The translations under genes were made by a program, and so were the position numbers. This document shows, piece after piece, positions 17,786-37,202 of a stretch of 64,000 bases of DNA. The DNA lies in the NCBI GenBank assembly GCA_015655145.1, contig JAATFO010000004.1, forward strand, positions 1-64,000, given 5' to 3'. Origin of the DNA: Enterobacterales bacterium. GTDB taxonomy: Bacteria; Pseudomonadota; Gammaproteobacteria; Enterobacterales; Enterobacteriaceae. Position 1 is the first letter of the stretch. Every line of letters starts with the position of its first letter. The notes under the pieces were generated by a model. That model saw only the letters and a program-made list of their open reading frames with translations, had not been told where the DNA came from and did no database searches.

Positions 17786-19305
17786 GCTTTCTTATTCGTG
17801 ATCTCAGGGTTTACAAATAGATACAATTCAGCAAACAAATCTGTCGCCAGCATTCCACGCATGCCATATCGCGCAGCCAACACGTCAGCGGCGGCGCCAT
17901 GCACCACACAGCCGGCACATGCTGCATCATACAACGGAAGCCGTTGCGCCAACAGTGCGCCAATAATGCCTGAAAGCACATCGCCCATGCCGCCGGAGGC
18001 CATGCCTGCGTTACCCACATCAGCAAACGCGATTGCCCCTTCATGGCTGGCGATCACCGTTCCCGCACCTTTTAACACCACCACCCCGCCATAGCGTTTT
18101 ACCAACTGTTGCGCCGCATGTAAGCGGTCACTTTCAATTTCCGCTGTTTTCACATTCAGCAATCGGCTGGCTTCGCCTGGATGGGGCGTGATAATCCGAT
18201 TTTGACGTTTATCAGGACTGATTGCCAGCAGGTTAAGCGCATCCGCATCCCAAAGCATCATTTTCTGTGATTTTTCGACACTTTTCAGCGCCTTCTTACC
18301 CCATTCTTGCTGACCGAGTCCGGGGCCTGTTACAATCACATCCGCCCATTCCAGACCTTGTTCGAGGGTCTTGCTACTCAGTTCATGTACCATCAACTCA
18401 GGTCTGGCCGTTAACAACGGCGCCACATTATCTTTGTGAGTGAGCACTCGCACTAATCCTGCTCCGGCACGTAAAGCCGCTTCCGCAGTCATGCGGATTG
18501 CTCCTGCGGTACCATAATCGCCACCGATAACCAGTAAACAACCATGATCCCCTTTATGTGATGTCGGCTGACGGGGTTTCAGCCATTGTTGCAGGGATGT
18601 CGCGTCATAACGCGCCATCGGCGCAACCTTGCCTCGCAACCAGTTGTCCAGCCCCAGCGCGTGATAATGCAGTTTACCCACCACATCGCGCGCTTTACCG
18701 GTGAGCAGCCCTGGCTTTATCGCTATCATGGTCAGCGTATGGGCCGCGTGTATCACCTCACCCGGCGTTGTACCGTTAGCAGCCACTAACCCGGAAGGAA
18801 TATCAAGCGCAAATACCGGTGCGGCATGCTGGTTAGCCTGCCGAATTAACGTTGCATAAGACGCTGCGGGAGGACGATTCAGCCCGGTCCCCAGCAAGGC
18901 ATCAACAATCACATCAACCTGCTCCGGCCAGACCGCATCGGCGGCATGAATCAGCCCGCCGGCTTCCAGCCAACCAGCGCGTGCCATATCCGCTTCCTCC
19001 GGCAGCGTGTTACTGCTTTCGCAGGCCAGCAGCGTCACCGTAAAACCAGCCGCCTGCGCCAGGCGCGCGACCACATAACCGTCGCCGCCATTATTCCCTG
19101 CACCGCACAAAACCAGCCAATGACGCGCATCGGGCCAAAGCAGGCGAATATGGTCAAACGCGGCGCTTCCTGCACGCTGCATCAGTTCATACAAGGTAAT
19201 ACCGAGGTCATCCGCCCCCTCGCGTTCCAGTTGTTTCAGCGCCTGCGCAGGCCAGACAGAATGTGGTAAACTGTCACTGTTTTCTTTCTGTTTATGGTCA
19301 GTCAT
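17782..19305 (-). CDS. nnr: bifunctional NAD(P)H-hydrate epimerase/dehydratase
   Basis: This enzyme repairs damaged NAD(P)H hydrates: the N-terminal YjeF_N domain epimerises them and the C-terminal carbohydrate-kinase-like domain dehydrates them with ADP. Seen in the 507-residue protein are the epimerase motif [16 protein letters not shown] near residue 63 and the dehydratase motifs VTGPGLGQ and [12 protein letters not shown] near residue 440. Its start codon overlaps that of divergent queG by two bases, so the two genes share no spacer DNA and each promoter must lie inside the other's coding region. Confidence 0.95.
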
Positions 19306-20443
19306 GTCATACCCTCTCGATCTCCATCAACTTGCTCAGGATATAAAACTGTGGGGGCTGTCGCTCGGTTTTCAGCAAGTCGGCATCTGCGATACGGACT
19401 TAAGCGCTGAAGAGCCACGCCTGCAAGCGTGGCTGGACAAACAATACCACGGCGAAATGGCATGGATGGAGCGCCACGGCATGATGCGTGCTCGCCCTCA
19501 TGCATTACTACCGGGCACATTACGCGTGATCAGCGTGCGGATGAACTATTTACCGGTCAAGGCCGCGTTCGCCAGCACATTAAAAAATGCCCGCCTTGGC
19601 TATGTTAGTCGTTATGCGCTGGGTCGTGACTATCACAAAGTGATGCGCAATCGGTTAAAAAAGTTGGGTGAGATGATCCGAGAGCGGTGTTCGGAGGCAA
19701 ATTTCCGCCCGTTTGTCGATTCCGCGCCGCTACTTGAGCGCCCACTGGCGGAAAAGGCGGGCCTCGGCTGGACCGGTAAACACACATTACTCCTTAACCG
19801 CGAGGCCGGTTCGTGGTTTTTTCTCGGCGAATTACTGATAGACCTGCCGTTGCCGGTGGATCAACCGCAAGCAGAGCAGTGTGGGCGGTGTGTCGCCTGC
19901 ATGACGACCTGTCCGACCGGCGCCATTGTCGCCCCTTATGTCGTCGATGCGCGCCGTTGTATTTCTTACCTCACCATTGAGCTGGAAGGCGCTATTCCTG
20001 AAGCGTTTCGCCCACTGATTGGCAACCGGATCTATGGTTGCGATGACTGCCAGTTAATTTGCCCATGGAATCGTTTCGGCCAGCTTACCGATGAAGCGGA
20101 TTTCAGCCCACGCGCAGCGCTACATGCCCCTGCACTGCCTGAGCTATTCATCTGGGATGAAAACCATTTCTTACAGGTGACGGCGGGGTCTGCCATTCGT
20201 CGCATTGGACATGTGCGCTGGCTGCGTAATGTCGCGGTCGCACTGGGCAACGCGCCTTATGATGCAGACAACATCCGCGTACTGACGCAACGACTGGGTG
20301 AAAATGCCATGCTGGATGAACATATTCACTGGGCAATAGCACAGCAAGAATCGAAACGACGAGAAAACAGCATTGAAGTACAACCTCCCCGACAAAAACG
20401 TCTGGTTCGTACCATTGAAAAAGGTTTACCCCGTGATGCTTAG
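19304..20443 (+). CDS. queG: epoxyqueuosine reductase QueG
   Basis: QueG carries out the last step of queuosine synthesis, reducing epoxyqueuosine in tRNA with cobalamin and two [4Fe-4S] clusters. The 379-residue protein has both cluster motifs, CGRCVACMTTCPTGAI near residue 193 and CDDCQLICPWN near residue 246, and the catalytic region VDSAPLLERPLAEKAG. It is the first rightward gene of the window and is divergent from nnr with overlapping start codons. The DnaA-box region follows it. Confidence 0.97.
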   Translation: MSYPLDLHQLAQDIKLWGLSLGFQQVGICDTDLSAEEPRLQAWLDKQYHGEMAWMERHGMMRARPHALLPGTLRVISVRMNYLPVKAAFASTLKNARLGYVSRYALGRDYHKVMRNRLKKLGEMIRERCSEANFRPFVDSAPLLERPLAEKAGLGWTGKHTLLLNREAGSWFFLGELLIDLPLPVDQPQAEQCGRCVACMTTCPTGAIVAPYVVDARRCISYLTIELEGAIPEAFRPLIGNRIYGCDDCQLICPWNRFGQLTDEADFSPRAALHAPALPELFIWDENHFLQVTAGSAIRRIGHVRWLRNVAVALGNAPYDADNIRVLTQRLGENAMLDEHIHWAIAQQESKRRENSIEVQPPRQKRLVRTIEKGLPRDA

Positions 20444-21081
20444 CGGTCTACATAATCACAAAACGGACCGAAACTATTTTTCCACATCCTGTGCATAAAA
20501 ATAAAAATTCTTTGTCATTCAATTGTCACAGAAACCGCAAGTGATCAAGACGACAATTTTGAATAAAATTATATAAATAAAAAACAATGAGTTATAAAAA
20601 AAATCTCAATCAGCGTCACATGACGGCAACGCAACGAACACACTAAGATCTGTGGATAAGTCTGTTCACAACATTATGACTAACTGCAAGGAAGGCCTTA
20701 TACACAGCAGCTCCCACTGTGGATAACCCGCAGCATTAACACGAAGTGGCGGGTACGCGGGCAGCAAAGAAGATTTAAATATAATGCGTTGATTAATAAT
20801 AAATTTTACTAAATCCGCACGCCTGTCCGGCGCAATTATGCGCCGCGCGAAGAACGAATGGCAAGCCCTTTCTGAACATCCTTAAGTTAATACAGCCAGC
20901 ATCCCCGGCGCCACGCTGTGCGCTGGGGGTACCATCACGTTAAATTCCCCGGGTGATAACAACAAGACACCCGGCACGCGGAATAAACAGAAAAACGAAT
21001 GTATTAACACCTGAGTGAGTATAAGAAATGGAGGTTTTCCGCAACGATGACGCCCACTGCATTCACTGTGGGCGGTATCCG
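20444..21081. other. long gene-free stretch between queG and acyltransferase gene
   Basis: Besides the DnaA boxes it is AT-rich (for example 20555-20605). A 7-base hairpin (21051-21057 with 21068-21074) sits just past the stop codon of the leftward acyltransferase and may help end its transcript. No credible coding region or tRNA was seen. Confidence 0.55.
20478..20794. promoter_or_regulatory. datA: datA-like cluster of DnaA boxes with IHF site
   Basis: This gene-free stretch after queG holds five matches to the DnaA box TTWTNCACA: 20478-20486 (+), 20490-20498 (-), 20651-20659 (-, perfect TTATCCACA), 20698-20706 (+, TTATACACA) and 20718-20726 (-, perfect). A perfect IHF consensus lies at 20782-20794 on the minus strand (AATCAACGCATTA). 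In E. coli the DnaA-titrating and inactivating locus datA lies just past queG and has DnaA boxes plus an IHF site, so the same role is inferred here. The glycine tRNA genes that flank it in E. coli are absent from this window. Confidence 0.7.
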
Positions 21082-22944
21082 TCACATCGCTTTCGATGCC
21101 GATGGCGGGAGCAGCTTTACCAGGTAACTGGCAAGATAATTCGCCGATGACATGCTTAAGTGGTTATCATCAAACAGCAAGGGATGATCATTTAATAACA
21201 TATTGCAGCGATCTTTTTCGCACAAAACTGAGGCTGGCATAAAACGAGTAATGCTGGGATCAACAGATTTATCAATTTGTGCAAAGGACGTATCAGCAAA
21301 GATAAACCCGGGATTTCTGCCGCGCGCCAGACTGGTTGGTACATCGACGCCAGCAGAAGGGACTGGTCCAATGATAATGACTTTTTTGCCATGAGCTGCC
21401 AGTCGCTCGGCCGTTTTCTTGAAACTATCATAGAATGCCTGAGCCGGATAAACCTGATATCGCGCAGCCATTATCACCACGTTAATATCTTTATCTTGCT
21501 CCAGAAATTGTATTGCCCTTGCATTATGCGCGATACAATCGGGCCGGGCATCTAACTGGAAGTCTAATGCCGGAGGGCAAGAAGAATAGGTAATTTCGTA
21601 CAAACTGACATTATTATTGCCCAAAGCCAGTGAAAGTTCCGCGCCATGGCTATCAGCCCATACGGCAACGGTTGGTTTTCCGGGACCGAAATGACAATAT
21701 TGCGAAGTTTGCGGCACGCCATGGTCAAAGTGGCATTGGGTTCGGGCAGCGCTGGAATCTTTATGTGCAGAGACGTAGCGCATCGTCTGCGCACTGAATC
21801 GTTCTGGCCATCCTCCCTGGGTAAAGGTCGCCAGAGTGGCCACAATCAACAAAGAAAAACCCCAGGCACTGACTTTATATAGCTTGCGGGCAGGATACGC
21901 CTTGCGGTCGCGGAAAGGCCGTTCAATAAAACGCCATGATATGACAGCAAAAATTATTGCAACAGCAACCACCATCAATTGGCCCGTGCTATCCGTGAGC
22001 AAGTTCCAGTTTCTAAAGAAAACAATCAGTGGCCAGTGCCAAAGGTAGAGAGAATAGGAAATCAGCCCGATAAACACCACCGGTTTCCATGACAGAATTT
22101 TCCCCACCAGCGACTTTTCCGCCGCATAGATAATACATACGCTACCGAATACCGGGAGTGCCGCAGCATATCCCGGAAAAGGGGTCGTTGCGTCAAACAA
22201 AAAGACACCCGCTAAAATACACAGCAAACCCGCCAACGAAATCAGTTCATTTACAGTGCTATTTTCAGTTTTGGGCAGAAGATTAAACGCCAGCAATGAT
22301 CCGGCAAGAAGTTCCCATGCACGTGACGGCAGCAGATAAAATGCCGCAGAAGGTTTCTGGTGGGTGAGCAGGATACTCAACAGGAACGACGCGAGAAAAA
22401 TAACCAGCAAAATTAATGCGGAGGAACGGTTAAACTTTTTAATGAGAAAGAATAAAAGAATCGGAGCAAATATATAAAACTGTTCCTCCACGCCCAAAGA
22501 CCATGTGTGCAATAAAGGGCGTTCTTCAGCATCGGCGGAAAAATAGCCTGATTTTTTCCAGCTCACAATATTTGAGACAAAGAGCAATGCACCGGCCACT
22601 TCTTTCGGCAAAAACTGATATTCGTCGGGTAATAACGCAAAAGGTGAAACGACGAGCACAAATAATACAACCGAGAAAAGTGCAGGGAATATCCTTCGGA
22701 TACGTCGCTCGTAGAAAGCGATAATACTGTAGCTACCAGAACGAATATCCTTAAGCAAAATTGATGTAATAAGAAAGCCACTTATCACAAAGAAGATATC
22801 TACACCCACATAGCCGCCAGAAACAACGGTAAATCCGGCGTGGAACAACAGAACAGGGAGAATAGCTAAAGCACGTAACCCGTCGATATCGGGGCGATAT
22901 TTAATTACCACAGTGGATGGCTCCGGTCTGTATAGCACAGTCAT
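21082..22944 (-). CDS. membrane O-acyltransferase with SGNH domain (OafA-like)
   Basis: A 620-residue protein built like OafA: an acyltransferase_3 membrane domain (start YRPDIDGLRALAILPVLLFH, about ten membrane segments to residue 380), then a periplasmic SGNH domain with VWADSHGAE (catalytic Ser) and DDNHLS (Asp/His pair). Such proteins transfer acetyl groups from the cytoplasm to surface sugars such as O-antigen, murein or exopolysaccharide. The acceptor cannot be told from sequence, since no glycan gene lies beside it. The start is uncertain: ATG at 22944 is used here, and TTG at 22950 is in frame. No strong ribosome binding site is seen. It is a single gene, probably acquired. Confidence 0.85.
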   Translation of the reverse strand: MTVLYRPEPSTVVIKYRPDIDGLRALAILPVLLFHAGFTVVSGGYVGVDIFFVISGFLITSILLKDIRSGSYSIIAFYERRIRRIFPALFSVVLFVLVVSPFALLPDEYQFLPKEVAGALLFVSNIVSWKKSGYFSADAEERPLLHTWSLGVEEQFYIFAPILLFFLIKKFNRSSALILLVIFLASFLLSILLTHQKPSAAFYLLPSRAWELLAGSLLAFNLLPKTENSTVNELISLAGLLCILAGVFLFDATTPFPGYAAALPVFGSVCIIYAAEKSLVGKILSWKPVVFIGLISYSLYLWHWPLIVFFRNWNLLTDSTGQLMVVAVAIIFAVISWRFIERPFRDRKAYPARKLYKVSAWGFSLLIVATLATFTQGGWPERFSAQTMRYVSAHKDSSAARTQCHFDHGVPQTSQYCHFGPGKPTVAVWADSHGAELSLALGNNNVSLYEITYSSCPPALDFQLDARPDCIAHNARAIQFLEQDKDINVVIMAARYQVYPAQAFYDSFKKTAERLAAHGKKVIIIGPVPSAGVDVPTSLARGRNPGFIFADTSFAQIDKSVDPSITRFMPASVLCEKDRCNMLLNDHPLLFDDNHLSMSSANYLASYLVKLLPPSASKAM

Positions 22945-23102
22945 AATCAATAGTTACAAAAAGATAACACATTGTCATGATCAAGCTCTAACTCGGCAGA
23001 TCAACTGATTAAAATTCAGATTTAACCTTATTATCCGATAAAACAATACGTACTTTCCTGTAAACCCCGATAACGTCTTACTCGCCTCCGCCAGCCAAAT
23101 GG

Positions 23103-23134
23103 CGCAAGGCAGGCCAGTGACGGCCTGCCTTGCG
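23103..23134. terminator. strong hairpin past betT
   Basis: Thirteen-base arms (CGCAAGGCAGGCC and its complement) around the loop AGTGAC lie about 80 bases past the betT stop, between two leftward genes. No U-tract follows, so it may be a terminator or an mRNA-end stabiliser. Confidence 0.45.
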
Positions 23135-23216
23135 GTTATCAGGTATTAGTGAGCAGGCTGCAAATACCCGGCCCCAATAGGCCGGTCCTGCTTTCCCATA
23201 TCCACACGGGTCGCTG

Positions 23217-24785
23217 TTAATGACTGAGGCCAGCCCGCTGCCCACTATGCAGTGCATCACGTTCTGCCTGTTGTAAATCTTTGTATAAATTCGCCATATA
23301 CAAAATCAACACGGCTGAGAACGGTAAACCACATAACACCACGGCGGTTTGCATCGCAGTGAAACTGCCAGCATACAATAAACCGATACACAGCAACGTG
23401 GTCAATATCGCCCAAAAAATTCGCAGCCATGCTGGCGCGTCATCATTGACCGTACCGCCCTGACTCGACAAATTAGCGATCATCAGGGTGCCGGAATCCA
23501 CTGGCGTCAGGAACAACACAAAGCTGATCACCACGGTAAATCCGGCGGTAATTTTGGTGTAAGGCAGGTATTCAAACAGTTTAAAAATCGACATTGGCGG
23601 ATCTGACAGCGCAATTTTCCCTAACAGGATGTTGCCATTCTCGAGGATCAAACTGATAGCGGTGTTACCAAAAATGGACAACCACGCAAGGGTAAATCCT
23701 AACGGAATCAACAGTACCCCTAAAATCAGTTCACGAATCGTACGCCCTTTGGAAATACGGGCAATGAACATTCCGACGAAAGGCGCCCACGCCACCCACC
23801 ATGCCCAGTAAAATAATGTCCAGGCGCCCTGCCACTGTTGCGCTTTACCGTACAGATAAAGATCAAAACTTTTACCCACAATGGAGGTAAGATAATCGCC
23901 GGTATTCTGTACCAGGCCATTAATTAAATTCAGTGTCGGTCCGGTCACGAATACAAACAATAACAACACACACAGGAAACCAACATTGATATTGGACAGC
24001 ACAGCAATGCCCTTTTCCACCCCGGTCACCGCCGCCAGCGTCGCTACCACCATCATGATGACAATCAACACCAACAACACATGGGTGTTCTGATCAACAT
24101 TGAACAGATAGTGTAACCCGGAATTAACCAACAACGCGCCGATGCCAAGGTTAGTCACCATCGAAATCACCGTCACCAGAATGCCGAAGCTATCTACCAG
24201 ATGGCCGATCCAGCCATTTGTCCGCGCGCCAAAAATCGGATACAGCGCGGAGCGCAACGCCAAAGGCAAACCGCGACAATAAGCAAACCAGGCCAATGCG
24301 GTGGCGATCAGCGCGTACAGCGCCCAGCCATGTAATCCCCAGTGCAGGAAAGTGATGGCCATTGCCTGACGCGCCGCCTGCACACTACCACCGACGCCTT
24401 CCGGTGGTTCAAGGAAGTGATCCAGCGGCTCATAGGCGCCGTAATAAACCAGCGCAATACCAATCCCGGCGGAAAACAGCATCGCCACCCATGAGGCATA
24501 GCTGAATTGCGGTTTTTCATCCTCCGCCCCAAGCCGAATCTTACCGAAGCGCGACAGTGCCAGCCAAAAGACAAACACCATACACGCCACCATCAACAGC
24601 ATGTAGTACCAGCCAAATACATCGGAAACCCACACTTGCGCGTGATTTAGCCAAAGTTGGCTACCTGCAGGGAAACACACAATAAGTACGCCCAGTAGCA
24701 GAATCACTGCGGCTGAGCTGATAAACACCGGAAGATTAAGCCTGATCGGTTCTGTACCGACATCTTTAGGAGCTATCGCTGTCAT
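23217..24785 (-). CDS. betT: choline transporter BetT, BCCT family, short form
   Basis: BetT is a BCCT-family secondary transporter that imports choline for conversion to glycine betaine. The 522-residue protein has about twelve membrane segments and the family signature in segment 8, WTLFYWAWWVAWAPFVGMFI. It is divergent from betIBA, which fixes the substrate as choline with good likelihood. Unlike E. coli BetT, which I recall as about 677 residues, it ends soon after the last membrane segment and lacks the long cytoplasmic tail linked to osmotic control. The tail is absent by design rather than cut off, since no frameshift is visible at the end. Confidence 0.88.
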   Translation of the reverse strand: MTAIAPKDVGTEPIRLNLPVFISSAAVILLLGVLIVCFPAGSQLWLNHAQVWVSDVFGWYYMLLMVACMVFVFWLALSRFGKIRLGAEDEKPQFSYASWVAMLFSAGIGIALVYYGAYEPLDHFLEPPEGVGGSVQAARQAMAITFLHWGLHGWALYALIATALAWFAYCRGLPLALRSALYPIFGARTNGWIGHLVDSFGILVTVISMVTNLGIGALLVNSGLHYLFNVDQNTHVLLVLIVIMMVVATLAAVTGVEKGIAVLSNINVGFLCVLLLFVFVTGPTLNLINGLVQNTGDYLTSIVGKSFDLYLYGKAQQWQGAWTLFYWAWWVAWAPFVGMFIARISKGRTIRELILGVLLIPLGFTLAWLSIFGNTAISLILENGNILLGKIALSDPPMSIFKLFEYLPYTKITAGFTVVISFVLFLTPVDSGTLMIANLSSQGGTVNDDAPAWLRIFWAILTTLLCIGLLYAGSFTAMQTAVVLCGLPFSAVLILYMANLYKDLQQAERDALHSGQRAGLSH

Positions 24786-24855
24786 TTAAAGGGTCCAGGA
24801 GAGGAAAATTAAACGGGCTAACGTAACGATTAGTTAACGTAAAGCCACCATTTTG

Positions 24856-24902
24856 TTGACAAGTTTGCAGCATATAGGGTATTGATTGAACGTTCAATCA
24901 AT
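24856..24902 (+). promoter_or_regulatory. betIBA promoter with BetI operator
   Basis: A -35 element TTGACA (24856-24861) and a -10-like TATTGA (24880-24885) are 18 bases apart. The -10 element overlaps a perfect 22-base palindrome (24881-24902) whose half is ATTGATTGAAC. BetI of E. coli binds a site in the same betT-betI interval and is released by choline. The overlap with the -10 element suggests direct blocking of RNA polymerase, and the site could also serve betT. Confidence 0.75.
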
Positions 24903-24940
24903 TAAATTCTACTGACACGAAGAAAAAAACTGAGGGTACG

Positions 24941-25540
24941 ATGTACCGTAAAGACATTCCAGAACAGCGCAAAGTGCAGCTGATTAACGCCGCCTTTGAA
25001 ACCATCGGCGAGGTCGGTCTGGCTAGCGTCACCATGTCGCAGGTTGCCACTCAGGCGGGCCTGTCCACCGGTATCGTTAGCCACTATTTTGGCGATAAAG
25101 AAGGCTTACTGAACGCCACCATGCGCAAGATTTTGCGCGATCTGTACGATGCGGTCGCCACATGTCGGGCACAGGCGGAGGACACGCCGCGCGCGCAACT
25201 GCAAGCCATCATTGCCGGCAACTTCCATGCCAGCCAGATCACGCCGAAAGCGATGCGCACCTGGCTCGATTTTTGGGCCGCCAGTATGCATCGCCCGGCG
25301 CTGCGCCGTCTGCAACGCGTCAACGACCATCGCCTCTATACCCATATCTGCTGTCAATTCCTACGCGTGCTACCACAAAACGCCGCACGCCGTTCCGCGC
25401 GTGGACTGGCAGCGATGATTGACGGACTGTGGCTGCGTGGCAGCCTGTCCGGCGACCATTTTGATAGCGCACAAGCCTGCCAAATCGCGGAAGACTATGT
25501 CGACAATATTCTCGCGCTACAACCGCATCGCGCGCACTAA
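24941..25540 (+). CDS. betI: choline-responsive TetR repressor BetI
   Basis: BetI represses the bet genes and is relieved by choline. The 199-residue protein has the TetR N-terminal helix-turn-helix (VTMSQVATQAGLSTGIVSHYFGDKEG, of which STGIVSHYFGDKEGLL is the recognition part) and a C-terminal ligand domain. It is the first gene of betIBA, 13 bases before betB, and is divergent from betT. The palindrome TTGATTGAACGTTCAATCAA upstream is its likely binding site. Confidence 0.94.
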   Translation: MYRKDIPEQRKVQLINAAFETIGEVGLASVTMSQVATQAGLSTGIVSHYFGDKEGLLNATMRKILRDLYDAVATCRAQAEDTPRAQLQAIIAGNFHASQITPKAMRTWLDFWAASMHRPALRRLQRVNDHRLYTHICCQFLRVLPQNAARRSARGLAAMIDGLWLRGSLSGDHFDSAQACQIAEDYVDNILALQPHRAH

Positions 25541-25553
25541 CGGAGCCTGATTA

Positions 25554-27026
25554 ATGAGCCAATTTCCCTTACAACAACTGTATATCGATGGTGCGCTGAC
25601 TGATGCCACGAGCGGTGAAACCTTCAACACCATCAATCCGGCAAACGGTGAGATTCTGGCGCAGGTACAACGCGCCAGTGAAGCAGACGTGGAACGCGCA
25701 GTGGTCAGCGCCGAACGCGGGCAGCGGATCTGGGCATCCATGACGCCCACTGAGCGTTCCCGAATTCTGTTACGCGCCGTAGATATCCTGCGTGCCCGTA
25801 ACGATGAACTGGCACGACTGGAAACCCTTGATACCGGTAAACCTTTCGCCGAAACCTCCACGGTCGATATCGTAACCGGCGCTGACGTACTGGAATATTA
25901 CGCCGGGCTGGCGACAGCAATTGAAGGCGAACAATATCCGCTGCGTGATAACAGTTTCTTCTATACGCGCCGTGAACCACTGGGGGTTACCGCCGGGATT
26001 GGCGCCTGGAACTACCCGATCAAGATTGCGTTGTGGAAATCCGCACCAGCACTGGCCGCCGGCAATGCAATGATTTTTAAACCCAGTGAAGTCACGCCCC
26101 TGAGTGTGCTTAAGCTGGCAGAAATCTACAGCGAAGCCGGATTACCGCCGGGTGTATTTAACGTGCTGCAGGGTGCGGGCCGCCAGGTTGGGCAATGGTT
26201 AACCGAGCATCCGCGCATCGAAAAGATCTCCTTCACCGGTGGTGTGGAAACCGGCAAAAAAGTGATGGCCAGCGCGGCATCCTCATCACTGAAAGAAGTC
26301 ACGATGGAACTGGGCGGCAAATCGCCGCTGGTGATTCTGCCGGATGCCGATATTGATCGAGCGGCCGACATCGCCATGATGGCGAACTTTTTCAGCTCCG
26401 GCCAGGTATGTACCAATGGTACCCGGGTGTTTATCCATCGCTCACAACAGGCAGCCTTTGAACAGGCACTGTTGCAACGCGTGGCGCGTATTCATCCCGG
26501 CGACCCGCATGACAGTAGGACCAATTTTGGTCCACTTACCAGCTTTGCCCATCTGGAAAAGGTACTGAAATACATCGATACCGGCAAAACGGAAGGCCCG
26601 CGCCTGCTCACTGGCGGCGAACGCATCACAGAAGGCGAATTTGCCCGCGGCGCCTGGGTACAACCGACCATTTTTAGCGATTGCGCAGATCATCACACCA
26701 TTGTTCGTGAAGAGATTTTCGGACCGGTGATGAGCATTCTTACCTGGGATGACGAAGAAGAAGTGATCCGCCGCGCTAATGACACCCATTTTGGTCTTGC
26801 TGCTGGCGTTGTGACCAACGATTTGTCACGAGCGCATCGCATTATCCACCGTCTGGAAGCCGGCATTTGTTGGATCAATACCTGGGGAGAATCCCCGGCG
26901 CAGATGCCTGTCGGCGGTTACAAACAATCCGGTGTTGGGCGTGAAAATGGTCTTGCTACCCTCGCCCACTACACGCGGATCAAATCTATCCAGGTTGAAC
27001 TGGACAAATTCACTTCTGTATTTTGA
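25554..27026 (+). CDS. betB: betaine aldehyde dehydrogenase BetB
   Basis: BetB oxidises betaine aldehyde to glycine betaine with NAD(P)+. The 490-residue protein has the aldehyde dehydrogenase catalytic Glu in [11 protein letters not shown] and the catalytic Cys in [14 protein letters not shown], plus the cofactor region [11 protein letters not shown]. It is the middle gene of betIBA, and the order and spacing match E. coli. Confidence 0.97.
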
Positions 27027-27042
27027 TGGTGAGGACGGTGTT

Positions 27043-28719
27043 ATGAGTAACCGCAGGGAATATGATTATATTATTATTGGTGCAGGATCTGCCGGTAACG
27101 TACTGGCGACGCACCTGACTGAAGATGCGGATGTCAGCGTGCTGCTGCTGGAAGCAGGCGGACCTGATTATCGTCTTGATTTTCGTACCCAAATGCCCGC
27201 AGCCCTTGCTTACCCGTTGCAGGGACGACGTTACAACTGGGCTTATTTGACCGATCCCGAGCCTTATATGAATAACCGCCGCATGGAATGCGGCCGCGGC
27301 AAAGGTCTGGGTGGATCCTCGTTGATCAACGGCATGTGTTATATCCGCGGCAACGCGCTGGATTATGATAACTGGGCAAAACAGTCGGGCCTGGAAAACT
27401 GGAGTTATCTTGATTGCCTGCCCTATTTTAAACGCGCGGAACATCGCGATATTGGCGGCAACGACTACCATGGTGACCATGGCCCGGTCAGAGTGACCAC
27501 GCCGAAAGCCGATAATAATGTGTTATTCCATGCCATGGTAGACGCTGGCGTACAGGCGGGATATCCACGCACGGAAGATCTGAATGGTTACCAGCAGGAA
27601 GGGTTTGGTCCGATGGACAGAACCGTCACCCCCAATGGTCGTCGCTCCAGCACGGCCCGTGGCTATCTTGATCAGGCGCGCGCGCGTACCAATCTGACCA
27701 TTGAAGTGCATGCCCTGACTGATCGGATCCTGTTTGACGGCAAACGCGCCATCGGCGTCAGTTGGTTACAACATGATAAATCTAACCAGGCATTTGCCCG
27801 CCGTGAAGTGTTGTTGTGTGGCGGCGCGATTGCTTCACCGCAGATTTTACAACGCTCCGGCGTCGGCCCGGCCGACGTATTAAAAAGTCTGGATATTCCG
27901 CTGGTGTCACATCTGCCAGGCGTGGGTGCTAACCTGCAAGACCACCTGGAAATGTACCTGCAATATGCCTGTAAGCAGCCGGTATCTTTATCACCGGCGC
28001 TGAAATGGTATAACCAGCCGGCGATCGGCGCGGAATGGCTGTTCTCCGGCACCGGCATCGGCGCCAGTAACCAGTTTGAAGCCGGTGGGTTTATTCGTAC
28101 TCATGAAGAATTCGCCTGGCCAAACATTCAGTACCATTTCCTGCCAGTGGCGATTAACTATAACGGATCGAATCCGATTAAAGTTCACAGCTTCCAGGCG
28201 CATGTTGGCTCAATGCGTTCACCCAGCCGTGGCCGGATACAGGTGCGTTCACGTGATCCGCGCGAACACCCCAGCATTTTATTTAACTATATGTCCCATG
28301 AGCAGGACTGGCGTGAATTCCGTGCGGCAATCCGTATCACCCGTGAGATCATGCAACAAGCTGCGCTGGACCCATACCGCGGACATGAAATTTCACCCGG
28401 CGCCAATTGCCAAAGCGATGATGAACTGGATAACTTTGTTCGCCATCATGCTGAAACGGCCTACCATCCCTCCTGCTCCAATGCCATGGGTTACCATGAT
28501 ATGGCCGTGGTGGGCGGCGATGGCAAAGTTCACGGGCTGGAAAACCTGCGTATCGTCGATGCGTCAATCATGCCGCAAATCACCACGGGCAACCTCAATG
28601 CGCCAACCATCATGATTGCGGAGAAAATCGCTGACATGATCCGTGGACGTCAACCGCTGCCTCGTGTTGAAGTGCCTTACTATGTGGCGAATGGTGCTCC
28701 GGTGCGGCAGAAGAAATAA
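27043..28719 (+). CDS. betA: choline dehydrogenase BetA
   Basis: BetA is a membrane-associated FAD enzyme of the GMC family that oxidises choline to betaine aldehyde. The 558-residue protein shows the FAD-binding start [17 protein letters not shown] signature 1 ([15 protein letters not shown]) and signature 2 ([17 protein letters not shown]), and the C-terminal region [20 protein letters not shown]. The start is ATG at 27043 behind GAGGACGG; the longer frame runs back into betB. It is a distant paralogue of the GMC enzyme at 35291. Confidence 0.96.
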
Positions 28720-29264
28720 CGCCCTACACCCGCAGATATCCCCGTTGCCCTGATGATTAAGCCCGGCAACGGCGAAACACCACTTACCCGGCCACAGACA
28801 AGCCTCACGCGTGTCTGTGGCATTAATTAAGCCTCACCGTCTCCTTCAGGTCATCCATCCAAAGGGCAAAAAGTGCAATCGGTTAGCTAAGCAATATCAA
28901 CGCCATACTTCTCATCTGTAAATATGGCGTCCGCTTACACCAGCGTGCCGTAGCATTGATCCTCACAGTCAATAAAGTTGATCTGCATCACAAATGACCC
29001 CCAGAAAGGTTTGATGGCTTTTTGCACCAAATTGATCTGAATGGGCTAAATGTGTGCAGATAAAAAATGCTGCCGCCACCTGAAAAAAAACCGGATTTGC
29101 GCGTGTGCTCTGCCTTGCCAGCGTAAATCACTTTTTGGCCCAAAAATTGCTTACTTCTTACTATGGCTGCTTAACGGGTCGATCAACGGACAAAGCACGC
29201 TAATTTTTTAACATAAATTGGTCCAGCCAGTGGACAATCAGGATATTAAGTAGGGTCGCATTAC
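28720..29264. other. gene-free stretch between betA and gntR-type regulator
   Basis: Two hairpins lie past betA: 8-base arms at 28742-28749 and 28765-28772, and 10-base arms (GCCACAGACA) at 28791-28800 and 28812-28821. The second is followed by an AT-rich stretch and is the better terminator candidate. The rest is AT-rich and leads to the regulator promoter and candidate operator near 29217. No coding region is supported. Confidence 0.5.
29217..29238. promoter_or_regulatory. candidate operator upstream of GntR-type regulator
   Basis: ATTGGTCCAGCCAGTGG followed by ACAAT forms an imperfect inverted repeat (TTGGTCCA against TGGACAA), a shape typical of FCD-subfamily GntR sites. Fifteen of its first 17 bases recur at 30023-30039, in front of the transporter operon. 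Confidence 0.6.
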
Positions 29265-29984
29265 ATGAATAAGTTTCAGCCCGTCAGCGTTACACGTTTG
29301 TATCGGCAAATCGCCGATCAGATAGCAGGGAAGATCAAAGAGGGAGACTTTCTACCAGGCAATCGCTTGCCGGCGGAACGGGAACTCGCTGAACAACTCC
29401 AGGTGAGCCGTACATCGGTGCGAGAAGCATTGATTGCTTTGGAGATTGGAGGGTTTGTAGAAGTTCGCGTGGGTAGCGGTGTGTATGTTACTGCCAACGG
29501 CGCGGGTTTAAATAACCTGTCCGGGGCGCTTGTCGGTCATTATGCGGATATAGGGGCGTTCGAGCTGATAGATGTGCATTTACTTATCGAGCCAGAGTGT
29601 GCGGCCCGGGCGGCAACGCAAGGTTCCGAGGACGAACTGGCAAAAATAATCACGGCCGGTCGGGCAATGGAGGACTCGGATAACCCGCGCTTACATAACC
29701 GCATGTTTCATTTGGCCATCTCTCAAGCCACAGGAAACGCGGCCATGGCATTAACGGTAGCGAATCTTTGGGAAATGCATGATGACAGCGTGATGTTCTA
29801 CAAACTGGAACAACACCTGGCCGAGCGAGAATCCTGGAAGCATGCGGAGTGTGAGCATCGCGAACTTATTGCGGCAATCGTCACTCGTGACCCTGTCGCA
29901 GCAAAACGCGCCATGCGAAAACATTTTCTGGGAAGTCGACGACGGCTGGGCGAAGTGTTCAATAGCAAGCAAGGTATTTTTTAA
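29265..29984 (+). CDS. FCD-type GntR transcriptional regulator
   Basis: A 239-residue regulator with an N-terminal winged helix (LYRQIADQIAGKIKEGDFLPG, helix-turn-helix RELAEQLQVSRTSVREALIA) and a C-terminal all-helical FCD ligand domain. The FCD metal/ligand residues appear as Asp/His-rich stretches (RMFHLAISQATGN, CEHRELIAAI). Such regulators commonly bind an organic acid and control the adjacent catabolic genes, which here are the ABC importer and three hydrolytic/oxidative enzymes. The start ATG at 29265 follows the candidate operator. No name can be given; the inducer is unknown. Confidence 0.88.
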   Translation: MNKFQPVSVTRLYRQIADQIAGKIKEGDFLPGNRLPAERELAEQLQVSRTSVREALIALEIGGFVEVRVGSGVYVTANGAGLNNLSGALVGHYADIGAFELIDVHLLIEPECAARAATQGSEDELAKIITAGRAMEDSDNPRLHNRMFHLAISQATGNAAMALTVANLWEMHDDSVMFYKLEQHLAERESWKHAECEHRELIAAIVTRDPVAAKRAMRKHFLGSRRRLGEVFNSKQGIF

Positions 29985-30022
29985 CCACTCTCGGTAAATC
30001 CTACCGGGGTTACCATCCTGAT

Positions 30023-30055
30023 ATTGGTCCAACCACTGGTATACCGGACCATATG
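30023..30055. promoter_or_regulatory. candidate operator before ABC-importer operon
   Basis: ATTGGTCCAACCACTGG differs from the site before the regulator gene at two of 17 bases. It runs into CTGGTATACCGG, a near-palindrome, and then CCGGACCATATGG. It lies between the regulator stop and the substrate-binding protein start, about 75-100 bases upstream of the latter, where a promoter is expected. Confidence 0.6.
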
Positions 30056-30122
30056 GTATTGACGGCTTTACTCGGGTTGATGACCCCGGTTGGCTGCAGT
30101 TGAATTTATGACGGAGCAAACA

Positions 30123-31706
30123 ATGAAACAAACGTTTTTGAAGTGCGCCGCGATGGTACTCGGCCTGGCAATCCTGACCAATAGTGCGTTAGTCCGGGCG
30201 GATGATGACAAGCCGGTTCATGGCGGCACGCTGGACGCTGTTGTGCAACCTGAACCGCCTATTCTGATGCTTGGCCTCAATCAGCAATCACCCACGCAAT
30301 ATGTGGGCGGCAAAATTTATGAAGGGTTATTGACCTATTCCCCGGACTTAAAGCCAATGCCCTCACTGGCTAAGTCATGGAAAGTATCGGAGGACGGACT
30401 GACCTATACGTTCAATCTGCAGAGTGGCGTCAAGTGGCATGATGGCAAGCCGTTTACGTCTGCCGACGCAGTATTCAGCGTTGATAAGTTTCTGCGCGAA
30501 AGTCACCCGCGTGTCCGCGTAGTAATTAACAAATACCTGGAATCGGTCACCGCGCCCGATGATCTGACCGTGGTATTTAAGTTGAAAGAACGATTTACGC
30601 CGTTTCTCGGCCTGTTTGGCGCAGACAATATGACCATGGTGCCAAAACATATCTATGAAGGGACTGACTTCAAAACCAACCCGGCGAATCAGACGCCCAT
30701 CGGTACCGGTCCGTTTAAATTCAAAGAGTGGAAAAAAGGGTCATATATTACGTTAGTGCGTAACCCGGACTACTGGAAAAATGGCAAGCCTTATCTGGAT
30801 CAAATCGTATTTCATGTTATTCCGGATGCCGCGTCTCGTTCGGTCGCCTTCGAAAAGGGAGACGTGCAGTTGTTACGCGGCAATGATATCGACTATGTGG
30901 ATGTTAAGCGTCTCAAGGCACTGCCGGGAGTGGAATATACCAACAAAGGCAACGAAATGTTCTCGCCAATGACATCCATGGTGATGAACGAGCGCAAACC
31001 GCCCTTTAATAATGTGAAGGTGCGGCAGGCGGTAATGCATGCAATCAATCGTAAGTTTATCGTCGACAACATTTTCTTTGGCATCGGCAAAGTGGCTACT
31101 GGCCCCATATCTTCCTCTACGCCGTTTTACGATAAAAATGTACCTGACTACGATTACGATTTGAACAAAGCCAGGGCGCTGATCAAAGAGTCCGGCGTTG
31201 ATGTCGGGGCGACCACCGTCAGGATCCTCTCCTACCCCTACGGATCAGCCTGGGATCGCCTCGCCGAATATACCAAACAAAGCCTTGAGCAAATTGGCTT
31301 TCATGTCGACATTGAAGCAGCGGATGCCGGCGGATGGGCACAACGGGTAGCGAACTTCGACTTCGACCTGACCTATCATTTTACTGACCAGTTCGGTGAT
31401 CCCGCGATCGGGGTTTCACGGTTATTTTTAACCAGCAACATCGTCAAGGGATCGCCATTCGTCAACAATGAAGGTTACAGCAACCCCAGGGTAGACGATT
31501 TACTGATCCGGGCCTCTTCCGCACAAACCCCCGAGGAGCGTCAGAAGCTGTATTCTCAGGCTCAATATATTCTGGTGGATGAAGTGGCCAACGGCTACTT
31601 ATTCGAAATTAAGAATGTGAGCTTCTATCGCAGCAATATAAAGAACCTGATCACCTCCGGGATCGGTTTGAATGCCTCTTTTGACAGCGTCTATATCAAG
31701 AAATAA
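30123..31706 (+). CDS. ABC importer substrate-binding protein, dipeptide/oligopeptide type
   Basis: A 527-residue periplasmic protein with a Sec signal peptide ending near ALVRADDD (residue 24) and the SBP family 5 pattern: VGGKIYEGLLTYSPDLKPMP, SLAKSWKVSEDGLTYTFNL, GTGPFKFKEW and RNPDYWKNGKPYLD. Family 5 proteins bind peptides, nickel, glutathione, opines or other small compounds. The enzymes downstream argue for a small amide or ester rather than a true peptide. The ATG at 30123 follows GGAG. It heads a tightly packed operon reaching to 39712. Confidence 0.9.
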   Translation: MKQTFLKCAAMVLGLAILTNSALVRADDDKPVHGGTLDAVVQPEPPILMLGLNQQSPTQYVGGKIYEGLLTYSPDLKPMPSLAKSWKVSEDGLTYTFNLQSGVKWHDGKPFTSADAVFSVDKFLRESHPRVRVVINKYLESVTAPDDLTVVFKLKERFTPFLGLFGADNMTMVPKHIYEGTDFKTNPANQTPIGTGPFKFKEWKKGSYITLVRNPDYWKNGKPYLDQIVFHVIPDAASRSVAFEKGDVQLLRGNDIDYVDVKRLKALPGVEYTNKGNEMFSPMTSMVMNERKPPFNNVKVRQAVMHAINRKFIVDNIFFGIGKVATGPISSSTPFYDKNVPDYDYDLNKARALIKESGVDVGATTVRILSYPYGSAWDRLAEYTKQSLEQIGFHVDIEAADAGGWAQRVANFDFDLTYHFTDQFGDPAIGVSRLFLTSNIVKGSPFVNNEGYSNPRVDDLLIRASSAQTPEERQKLYSQAQYILVDEVANGYLFEIKNVSFYRSNIKNLITSGIGLNASFDSVYIKK

Positions 31707-31802
31707 CGCCTTGCGCCAATGATCGCAACCTGCCGGGGGAGCGGTCATTGGCCAGGATACAACGCGGTATTAGCCCATTCACTTAATAGAGCGCTTTTTA
31801 CC

Positions 31803-32792
31803 ATGAAATTTTTTTCATTCCTGCTTTCCCGACTCGGCAAGGCTCTCATTGTTATCCTTGGCGTGGTTACGGTGAATTTCCTGTTGATCCGCCTGGCACC
31901 GGGTGATCCCGCCGCCATTATGGCGGGCGAGGCTGGTGCGAGCGACCCCAGCTATCTCACGCAACTGCGCACGCAGTTTGGTTTTGATCAACCTCTTTAT
32001 TATCAGCTTTGGGTCTATATCAAGGGTATTTTTCATTTTGATTTCGGCTATTCCTATCGTAATGAATTGCCGGTATTGCAGCTAATTCTCGATCGTCTAC
32101 CGGCAACACTGTTGCTGATGGGGTGCGCATTTATTTTTTCTATTGTAACCGGGGTGCTGCTGGGTGTTTTGGCCTCGCGAAGCCGTTACACCAACCGGCA
32201 TAAATGGGTCGACAGCCTCATCATGTTTGGCGCGTTGATTCTTTACGCGACCCCATTGTTCTGGCTATCGCTACTGGGGATTTTGTTGTTCTCGGTATTC
32301 CTTAACTGGTTGCCGGCGTTTGGCATGGAAACGGTTGGCGCCAGCCTGACTGGCTGGGCGCAGGTCAAGGATATTGGTGCGCATCTGGTACTGCCGACCC
32401 TATCACTGGGCTGTTTTTATATGGCCATGTATGCACGTCTGACGCGAGGATCAATGCTTGAAGTTATGGGCATGGATTTTGTCAAGACCGCCCGCGCCAA
32501 GGGGGTACCTACCAGCCAGGTGATCCGCCGGCATGTATTGCGTAATGCCTTGCTGCCGGTGGTGACTTTCTCCGGCATTCAGTTGGGACAGATGGCCGGC
32601 GGAGCGGTATTAACCGAGACCGTATTCGGCTGGCCGGGCATTGGCCGGCTCATGTTTGATGCCTTGATGCAGCGTGATTATCAAGTGCTGTTGGGGGTCT
32701 TTTTGATCACATCAACCATGGTTGTACTGTTCAATCTGCTGACCGACCTGATATATCGCTTCGTCGATCCGCGCATTGAGTTCGGGAATTGA
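31803..32792 (+). CDS. ABC importer permease, DppB type
   Basis: A 329-residue inner-membrane protein with six predicted segments, the first at residues 9-30 (ALIVILGVVTVNFLLIRLAP), followed by the DppB-type N-terminal region APGDPAA and the EAA loop RAKGVPTSQVIRRHVLRNAL that docks on the ATPase. It lies 96 bases after the binding protein and one base before the second permease. The start at 31803 (MKFFSFLLSRLGKAL) is preferred over the longer in-frame one, which covers the intergenic spacer. Confidence 0.92.
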   Translation: MKFFSFLLSRLGKALIVILGVVTVNFLLIRLAPGDPAAIMAGEAGASDPSYLTQLRTQFGFDQPLYYQLWVYIKGIFHFDFGYSYRNELPVLQLILDRLPATLLLMGCAFIFSIVTGVLLGVLASRSRYTNRHKWVDSLIMFGALILYATPLFWLSLLGILLFSVFLNWLPAFGMETVGASLTGWAQVKDIGAHLVLPTLSLGCFYMAMYARLTRGSMLEVMGMDFVKTARAKGVPTSQVIRRHVLRNALLPVVTFSGIQLGQMAGGAVLTETVFGWPGIGRLMFDALMQRDYQVLLGVFLITSTMVVLFNLLTDLIYRFVDPRIEFGN

Positions 32793-32793
32793 T

Positions 32794-33639
32794 ATGACTA
32801 CTTTTTTACAACGTTTTACGACTAACAAAGGCGCCGTAGTGGGTTTGGTCATTGTGGCTGTGGTGATTGCCATCGCCTTGATGGCTCCGTTTATTTTTGC
32901 ATCCTCCCCCTGGATGATGGTAGGGCAGCCACTGCTTAAACCCTTTGAAAATCCCGAATTCCCACTGGGTACCGACATGCTCGGCCGGGACATCGGCGCT
33001 GGGCTGGCTTACGGCGCCCAAGTGTCATTACTGATTGGCGTTATTTCTACGATGGTCGCCGTGGTGGTCGGTATTCTGATCGGCGCAGCGGCGGGTTTCC
33101 ACGGCGGATGGATCGACGATCTGCTCATGCGCTTTACCGAGTTCTTCCAAACCATACCTCAACTGGCCATGGCCGTAGTACTGGTGGCGATTTTTAATCC
33201 TTCCATCTACTCGATCGTTGGCGCGATAGCCCTGGTCTCATGGCCACCCGTGGCGCGACTGGTGCGTAGTGAATTCATGTCGCTTAAGCAACGCGAGTTT
33301 GTGCAGGCTGCGGTGGTCATTGGACAACGGCCATCGCGCATCATTTTCACGCAGATCCTGCCCAACGCCATCTCGCCCATCATCATTACCGCATCGCTGA
33401 TGATTGCCACCGCCATTTTGACCGAATCGGCCCTGTCGTTCCTTGGGTTGGGCGATCGGAACATGATGAGTTGGGGGTATATGATCGGCGCTTCACGCAC
33501 CATGTTGCGTGAAGCGCCGTGGATGAGTGTGATGCCGGGGTTGGCCATTCTGCTCACTGTGCTGGCCATCAATCTTATCGGCGAAGGCCTGAGCGATGCG
33601 ATGAATCCACAACTGCACAAGCATAGGGGCAATAAGTGA
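32794..33639 (+). CDS. ABC importer permease, DppC type
   Basis: A 281-residue partner permease of DppC type. It has the N-terminal OppC segment, the characteristic FPLGTDMLGRD motif, and the EAA loop VVIGQRPSRIIFTQILPNAI. It follows the DppB-type gene with a one-base gap, and its stop overlaps the GTG start of the ATPase gene, so the translation of the three is coupled. Confidence 0.92.
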   Translation: MTTFLQRFTTNKGAVVGLVIVAVVIAIALMAPFIFASSPWMMVGQPLLKPFENPEFPLGTDMLGRDIGAGLAYGAQVSLLIGVISTMVAVVVGILIGAAAGFHGGWIDDLLMRFTEFFQTIPQLAMAVVLVAIFNPSIYSIVGAIALVSWPPVARLVRSEFMSLKQREFVQAAVVIGQRPSRIIFTQILPNAISPIIITASLMIATAILTESALSFLGLGDRNMMSWGYMIGASRTMLREAPWMSVMPGLAILLTVLAINLIGEGLSDAMNPQLHKHRGNK

Positions 33640-35294
33640 TCAACCAACAAAACGAGGCGTTGCTGAGCATTCGCAACCTGACCGTCGCGTTGCCTGAAGG
33701 CGGAGATCGCCCCCATGCAGTGCGGGATATTTCCTTCGATCTACGCGCGGGCGAAATTTTATGTATCGTCGGCGAGTCAGGTTCAGGCAAGTCGATTAGC
33801 GCCAACGCCATTATGGGTTTGCTGCCTGACTATCTGAAACCGCAGGCCGGTAGCATCCTGTTCAAAGGCCATGATTTGCTGCAGCTCTCTGAAAACGCAT
33901 TGCTGAAATTACGCGGCAAAGATATCGGCATGATTTTCCAGGAACCCATGTCGGCGCTGAATCCGGTGATGACCGTTGGTCGGCAAATTGCCGAAGTCAT
34001 GGCCATCCATGGCGCTTATCCCGGCAACGAACGCGCCACCAGAGTCGTGCAGATGCTCGATTTAGTCGGCTTGCCCGACCCGCAAATTTTGCAGCATGCC
34101 TACCCATTCCGGCTTTCCGGTGGTCAGCGCCAAAGGGTGATGATTGCCATGGCGCTGGCATTGGAACCGGCGATCCTGATTGCCGACGAACCGACTACCG
34201 CGCTGGATGTAACCACCCAGGCACAAATCCTTGACTTGATCAAACGTATCCAGAAATCGATGGGCATGGGCGTGATGTTCATCACCCATGACTTTGGCGT
34301 GGTGGCCGATATCGCCGATCGGGTGGCGGTGATGGAAAAAGGCCTGCTGGTTGAGCAAGGATCGGTTTCGGCGGTGCTGAACCATCCCCAACATCCTTAT
34401 ACCCGCCGGCTTATCGCGGCAGTGCCGCATGGCCGAACCGATAAGTCGTTGTTGGCAGAGAGTCCGCGCCTGCCCCTGCTGGAAGTGAAAAATCTGCATA
34501 AGACCTACGTGACGGCACGGGGAATGATGGTCAAAAAGCGCGTAGTGCATGCTATTGATGATGTCAGTTTCACGGTACCTCATGGCCAGACGTTGGGTAT
34601 CGTTGGTGAATCGGGTTCAGGCAAATCGACCATTGGTAAATGTCTGCTTAGATTGGTCGATATAGACAGCGGCCAACTGATATTCAATGGCGAAAATATT
34701 GCCCTGCTGACACCCGCCCAGTTTCGTAAACATCGCCAGCATATTCAGATGATCTTCCAGGATCCCTTCGCTTCGCTGAATCCACGCCATACTGTAGGCC
34801 GTTCTATCATGGACGGTCCGTTAAGCAATGGCGTCGGCCGCAGGGAAGCTGAAATCCGCGCGCGTGAATTGCTGCGGCTGGTTGAACTTGATGAGTCGGC
34901 ATTCCATCGTTACCCCAATGAATTCTCAGGCGGCCAGCGCCAGCGGGTCGGTATTGCCCGCGCCTTAGCCTTACAACCACAGTTGCTGGTCGCCGATGAG
35001 TCAGTCTCGGCGCTGGACGTTTCCGTACAGGCTCAGGTACTGCAGCTTTTGCAGGATATTCAGCGGCGTTTACACCTTTCAATGATTTTCATTACCCACG
35101 ACCTTCGTGTCGCGGCCAAAATCTGCCATCAGATTGTGGTCATGCATAAGGGCCGCATCGTCGAGTACGGTGCGCCTGCTCAAGTGCTCGACCAGCCGCA
35201 GCACGCTTATACCCAGAGTTTGATCGATGCGATTCCAGGCAAAACATGGAATCCGATCTCTGCCATACACCCTCGCGATGGAATCCTGAAATGA
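33636..35294 (+). CDS. ABC importer ATPase, fused DppD-DppF type
   Basis: A 552-residue protein with two complete ABC ATPase domains in one chain. The first has the P loop GESGSGKS near residue 45, the signature [14 protein letters not shown] and Walker [13 protein letters not shown]. The second has [12 protein letters not shown] near residue 323, the signature [15 protein letters not shown] and Walker [13 protein letters not shown]. Each is followed by the oligopeptide-transporter C-terminal extension. One fused protein replaces the usual separate DppD and DppF. The start is GTG at 33636, overlapping the permease stop by four bases; the stop overlaps the next start by four bases. Confidence 0.93.
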
Positions 35295-37012: not shown

Positions 37013-37202
37013 TGATATTAAAACCGCCGCCAGGCACGCCGGCTGGCGTCTTGCGCCGCAGCGTGCCGAACAAATCGCCGCCGTTGCCGCTGAGCGAATC
37101 GTTGTGTTCGAGCGGGTCCGGGCACGTTTGCAATTTGATGATGACACCGGGTTTGCCCAGGTTCTGGATGCGACCCGCCATCCCGAAGAGGGGAACATCT
37201 GA
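36993..37202 (+). CDS. AtzG-like small subunit (DUF4089)
   Basis: A 69-residue protein starting MPKLTANDIKTAARHAGWRL. It resembles AtzG, a small GatC-like partner that forms a complex with the amidase AtzE and is needed for its folding or activity. The start is ATG at 36993 behind AGGAG and lies inside the 3' end of the GMC gene; the stop TGA overlaps the amidase ATG by one base. This close coupling to an amidase-signature gene is the main support. The AtzG resemblance is from memory and needs a profile search. Confidence 0.75.
   Translation: MPKLTANDIKTAARHAGWRLAPQRAEQIAAVAAERIVVFERVRARLQFDDDTGFAQVLDATRHPEEGNI

Follow-up and report, generated by a model that had tools for sequence, protein, structure and literature searches.

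The DNA analysed here, referred to as the window, is a stretch of 64,000 nucleotides from an Enterobacterales genome. The gene for epoxyqueuosine reductase, queG, is situated on the plus strand at 19304-20443 (NCBIfam TIGR00276, 500 bits). Past queG, five exact TTWTNCACA DnaA boxes are found within 249 bp, in agreement with an earlier sequence-only reading that had counted five boxes, two of them perfect. They are TTTTCCACA at 20478-20486 (plus strand), the partner of E. coli TCATCCACA (L001, 3919); TTATGCACA at 20490-20498 (minus); TTATCCACA at 20651-20659 (minus), within the conserved CTGTGGATAASTCTGT; TTATACACA at 20698-20706 (plus); and a second TTATCCACA at 20718-20726 (minus). These are named box 5, box 4, box 2, the extra box and box 1, respectively. 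Boxes 2 and 1 were assigned by exact match and alignment, and the extra box has no E. coli counterpart in the alignment. A candidate low-affinity box, box 7 (TTGTGAACA, two mismatches), is located on the minus strand at 20663-20671; as in E. coli, 3 bp separate it from box 2. The numbers 5, 4, 2, 7 and 1 were deduced from passages of published papers; box 3 was given no position.

The window contains six exact boxes, one of them outside the cluster, a total that matches shuffled sequence (mean 5.8); the unusual feature is the clustering. The whole genome has 367 exact boxes per 4.18 Mb. The number of clusters of at least five boxes in 249 bp expected genome-wide is 3.4e-6, for a uniform Poisson distribution and a width chosen after the cluster had been seen.

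In E. coli MG1655, queG is followed, in this order, by a box pair, the IHF site TATCAATAGGTTA, TTATCCACA with the adjoining TTGTAAACA, ATATCCACA, three tRNA-Gly genes and orn. The alignment of the window with E. coli datA extends up to box 1. The two loci are alike in adjoining the 3' end of queG, in the order and orientation of the boxes, in having a low-affinity box beside box 2, and in the 56 bp that separate the IHF site from box 2. However, the window has an extra exact box (20698), an IHF site one mismatch away from the consensus, and 161 bp instead of 162 bp between boxes 4 and 2. Furthermore, glyVXY and orn are gone from the flank, and a tRNA-type leader faces datA instead. Because alignment and spacing agree with E. 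coli and relatives, 20478-20726 is firmly identified, on sequence grounds, as the datA orthologue of this genome, which supports the datA-like locus that had been read after queG.

Related loci were collected with a 16-base box 2 signature, which 187 of the 314 family genomes carry, the remainder including many reduced genomes; a reversed control had no occurrence among the matches listed. From 182 loci, 24 were dropped (8 lacking the exact signature, and 16 that have it lacking queG). The remaining 158, which include some species twice because two collections were pooled, comprise 104 with a tRNA-Gly gene within 400 bp of box 2 (tRNA-adjacent), 48 non-adjacent ones and 6 on contigs too short to tell. 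The distance between boxes 4 and 2 is 161 bp in 85 of the 104 tRNA-adjacent loci and 162 bp in 9. Between box 4 and the IHF site, in 20499-20550 and its homologues, there are two conserved blocks, approximately TTTGNNNATCAA and CAAGTGATC, found in most aligned Enterobacterales datA loci. Neither is an obvious DnaA box, and one of them may be box 3.

At the place that corresponds to the IHF site of E. coli datA, the window has AAACAATGAGTTA (20582-20594, plus strand), one mismatch from WATCAANNNNTTR and, as in E. coli, 56 bp from box 2. Among the tRNA-adjacent loci this site has no mismatch in 27, one in 50, two in 21 and three in 6, so that one mismatch is the commonest state (50/104) and the site in the window is ordinary. 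The IHF site proposed earlier, 20782-20794, does have a perfect consensus, but it lies outside the boxes, beyond box 1, and not at the E. coli position. It was ruled out as the datA IHF site because the E. coli site is situated between the box groups, 56 bp from TTATCCACA; it aligns instead with an IHF-like column of tRNA leaders. According to passages of one report (PMC5742627), hydrolysis at datA depends on R281, R285 and R334 of DnaA and on both IHF subunits. The genome encodes both IHF subunits, and its DnaA, identical at 429 of 463 residues overall, has all three arginines conserved.

The other flank is rearranged. No tRNA genes were found in the 64-kb window, which confirms that the glyVXY operon is missing beside datA. 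The next gene (21082-22950, minus strand, reading toward datA) is of the acyltransferase-3/SGNH type; an acyltransferase gene had also been read there. It is 73% identical to an acyltransferase gene product in G020 that is encoded far from the datA of that genome. Beyond it are a BCCT transporter gene and a BetI-type regulator gene; further right are HI0933-like and phosphate-transporter genes, followed by rsmJ, prlC and rlmJ, which are far from datA on the E. coli map. A cluster at 23217-38650, between datA and the pitA-like, rsmJ-prlC-rlmJ region, consists of the BCCT transporter, the BetI-type regulator, an aldehyde dehydrogenase, two GMC-type oxidoreductases, a peptide ABC transporter and an amidase, some members being named by eye. 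All matches to the junction itself, 20740-21090, were short and weak; at E <= 0.01 they came from 14 of 118 genomes, its own included.

The orn gene, with its usual glyV-type promoter, and one tRNA-Gly gene are on a separate contig, C48. This contig ends 484 bp after orn/tRNA-Gly, and further tRNA copies could lie past its end, which looks like IS1. A second tRNA-Gly gene is on contig C130, where it is followed by an integrase-like start, recognised by eye, and then by IS903-like sequence. The tRNA-Gly genes L082/L143 (C130) and L083 (C48) have similar downstream sequences. The best two datA matches among the family genomes searched have tRNA-Gly genes followed by orn: four in G129 and three in G085. 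In G276, assigned by its label to the genus of G129, the 5 kb extracted at datA contain no tRNA-Gly. That the window retains a remnant of a tRNA gene or of an att site was also considered and rejected: blastn with the genome's own tRNA-Gly region returned only exact matches of 11-13 bp among the best 20. The CCCGC that follows the leader is too short to be claimed as a tRNA remnant. It was supposed, too, that after tRNA displacement datA is invariably followed by a gene that reads toward it; this was given up because several loci, L018, L275, L276, L136, L189 and L266 among them, have the opposite direction, as judged by eye, including in one set of 18 loci.

The sequence-only reading had described a rearrangement on one flank. 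The tRNA genes are indeed gone, but something of the flank is left: a tRNA-type leader still faces datA. This leader occupies 20774-20871 on the minus strand, with limits taken from a leader model, and was recognised by alignment and by a match to a tRNA-leader profile at E = 3.8e-4. A promoter scan located its core, TTGCCA-N18-CATAAT, at 20835-20864 (minus). The perfect IHF consensus AATCAACGCATTA at 20782-20794 (minus) falls on the IHF-like column of the leader alignment. Over 20 bp, positions 20855-20874 (minus) are identical to the C130 tRNA-Gly leader of this genome, and 18 of these 20 bases match the leader before tRNA-Cys on C30. The 15-base AAAGGGCTTGCCATT occurs exactly twice in the genome, in the datA leader and in the C130 tRNA-Gly leader; when two mismatches are allowed it is hardly commoner (18) than its reversed control (12). 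The core is the one promoter-like site found in a scan of 20300-23300 and is aimed at datA; shuffles of the region gave 5.4, showing that the promoter match alone is not significant. No terminator-like site was found between the leader and datA. No tRNA gene lies directly downstream of the leader in the 64-kb window, and the element was therefore named an orphan leader rather than a tRNA leader.

The profile had been trained on 12 tRNA-gene leaders: nine datA-side leaders with non-native promoters, the genome's own tRNA-Gly and tRNA-Cys leaders, and E. coli glyW; the window was excluded from training. The E-value of leader model R1 on the window is circular, the window being in its alignment, and was not counted as evidence. 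Of the 48 non-adjacent loci, 31 were tested, 13 having been omitted because of a tRNA within about 1.1 kb (L020 among them being in the training set) and 4 as repeat species. In the gaps of these 31 loci the profile found a match at E <= 0.003 in 14, every one on the strand facing datA. The same profile gave none below E = 1 in 93 native upstream regions, where the best value was 3.1. The 14 positives form five groups, some of them assembled by neighbour gene and similarity: the window, six loci with an ahpF-like neighbour, two of Xenorhabdus, four of Photorhabdus or Photorhabdus-like, and L199. There was no clear leader in 17 loci: L035, L183, L136, L189 (E = 0.029), L195, L238, L265, L266, L283, L284, L128 and six of the Limnobaculum type (L039, L253, L255, L258, L259, L261), whose gaps of 72-74 bp leave no room for one. 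On these matches the predicted orphan leader recurs in several genera, and chance does not explain it.

Promoters of the same kind face datA beside other neighbour genes in Brenneria and Pectobacterium (ahpF-like), Xenorhabdus, Photorhabdus and others, with the end of the -10 element 137-242 bp from box 2. A promoter with a GC-rich discriminator was found facing datA in 18 of the 31 loci and facing away in one, and dinucleotide shuffles gave such a promoter in 0 to 10% of cases per locus. Among the six ahpF-neighbour loci, identity is 75% in the 17-bp spacer, against 31% and 45% in the upstream flanks, 61% over the ten bases past the -10, and 33% and 27% thereafter; the hexamers, being fixed by the search, were excluded from this comparison. 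The spacer is 80% identical in Photorhabdus and 82% in Xenorhabdus. There, identity is complete over the ten bases past the -10 and 63-91% in the stretches that follow; since the sequence past the -10 is as conserved as the spacer, these genera (3-4 loci each) provide no contrast. A leader-model search of 60 genomes found 20 places at E <= 1.4e-4, some of them in the model's own alignment. An intact tRNA gene lies within about 120 bp downstream in 16 of these, and in one the contig stops within a tRNA-Cys. In the window and in L311 the match faces datA, and in L322 it precedes a tRNA-Gly 3' end without a body.

The site itself appears to persist when the tRNA genes do not. Among loci selected by queG, an exact TTATCCACA box is situated within 700 bp of queG in all 41 from Enterobacterales, and nine of these (L005, L010, L012, L018, L023, L031, L035, L038 and L039) have no tRNA-Gly within 1.1 kb. 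The earlier suggestion that the site outlives loss of its tRNA flank is thus upheld, and survival of datA in such lineages supports selection on the site itself. Outside Enterobacterales, four of nine queG-selected loci have the exact box and five do not. The 158 loci, selected by the box 2 signature, cannot reveal loss of datA; the queG-selected set can, and shows none. Comparison of the non-adjacent with the tRNA-adjacent loci shows box 4 exact in 44/48 against 99/104, the IHF site with at most one mismatch in 27/48 against 77/104, and box 1 exact in 20/48 against 51/104. The lower counts for the IHF site and box 1 indicate somewhat poorer conservation of these two elements where the tRNA neighbour is missing. 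According to passages of PMC10950094, E. coli can dispense with box 1. In L195 and L238, one from a genome of 1.6 Mb and the other from one of 2.2 Mb, the box 2 signature is beside orn, with no tRNA-Gly recognised between them.

According to the same paper (Kasho et al. 2024, PMC10950094), IHF leaves E. coli datA on time only if there is read-through from glyVXY, with a further, unnamed factor also involved. This model thus ties the removal of IHF ahead of initiation to glycine tRNA transcription and that additional factor. The orphan leader resembles the glyVXY control in that it has a predicted promoter of the stable-RNA type on the same side, upstream of box 1 and aimed at datA. Unlike glyVXY, it has no tRNA product, its hexamers are TTGCCA/CATAAT and not of the TATAATGCGC type, it has its own IHF consensus, and its promoter is a predicted one.

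The best overall explanation, and one that we consider rather probable, is that transcription from the leader supplies the read-through of datA. By homology with E. coli datA, IHF would bind at 20582-20594 and bend the DNA. ATP-DnaA on the flanking boxes would then oligomerise and hydrolyse ATP after initiation, as reported for E. coli. With glyVXY, which transcribes into datA in E. coli, displaced here, the orphan leader, possessing a promoter and an IHF consensus but no tRNA body, would take over. Its transcript would cross the datA IHF site and help to displace IHF ahead of initiation, as has been reported for read-through from glyVXY. We infer the activity of the promoter, the effect on IHF and selection for the leader, and the role of the leader at datA is put forward as a testable proposal, not as a result.

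The leader might instead be a neutral relict, left by a deleted tRNA-Gly gene or forming the right end of an element that inserts at the 3' end of tRNA-Gly, in which case datA works and the leader plays no part. We consider this unlikely, but it is the least improbable of the alternatives. A tRNA-Gly 3' end without a body is found downstream of the leader in L018, L023, L199 and L322 and fits either origin; the integrase-like start (by eye) after the tRNA-Gly on C130 points the same way, and 17 of the 31 tested loci manage without a clear leader. It accounts less well for the persistence of a promoter facing datA in several genera with different neighbour genes, or for a spacer that is more alike than most of its surroundings in six loci. 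That the leader drives an unrecognised small RNA between 20828 and datA appears improbable. The promoter looks strong with no known gene behind it, and the sequence past the -10 is conserved in Photorhabdus and Xenorhabdus (3-4 loci each), but the identity beyond +10 falls to 27-33% in the six ahpF-neighbour loci, and an Rfam scan gave one sub-threshold match, in the acyltransferase gene, and none between 20828 and datA.

The mismatch in the positional IHF site could mean that this site is weak, and hence that the locus just titrates DnaA and does not stimulate ATP hydrolysis; this is more improbable still, as one mismatch is also the commonest state beside tRNA genes, and the spacing and the DnaA residues are kept. 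An assembly error at the junction of datA with the acyltransferase gene might be suspected in a draft of 156 contigs that is 91.7% complete. It is very improbable, since leaders of the same kind and direction occur at a similar distance in other genomes, and orn with its own promoter and a tRNA-Gly is on a different contig.

Returning to leader-driven read-through, a broader form may be advanced tentatively: incoming transcription could be a conserved part of datA, such that several lineages with displaced tRNA genes have retained or acquired a promoter, equipped with an IHF site, that serves to transcribe datA and yields no tRNA. If so, a tRNA-type promoter has been turned into a replication-timing element. 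Loci that have a facing promoter and no tRNA separate tRNA production from transcription of datA, and those with neither provide a second contrast. As natural loci with and without the facing promoter exist, the model can be tested by comparison. Among the open-licence papers listed, none was noticed that deals with an orphan tRNA leader or with the fate of datA in organisms other than E. coli that have lost the tRNA genes; both are weak evidence of absence, the latter also because "datA" equals "data" as a search term.

Similar leaders precede tRNA-Gly, tRNA-Cys-Leu and tRNA-Val genes in relatives, several of them in split tRNA operons. They share with the window the -35, the -10, the discriminator and the IHF-like column, but lead into a tRNA gene where the window has datA. 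A TTGCCA-N17-CATAAT leader with an IHF-like site was seen before tRNA genes in L144 (C30), L309, L310, L314, L321, L323, L324, L326 and L331. In E. coli such tRNA genes are later members of operons, for example tRNA-Cys-Leu after tRNA-Gly. From their sequences, the split operons look as if they had been supplied with a new promoter. On the datA side of orn, L321, L209 and L212 have a dehydrogenase-like gene of about 310 codons with a tRNA-Gly gene on either side.
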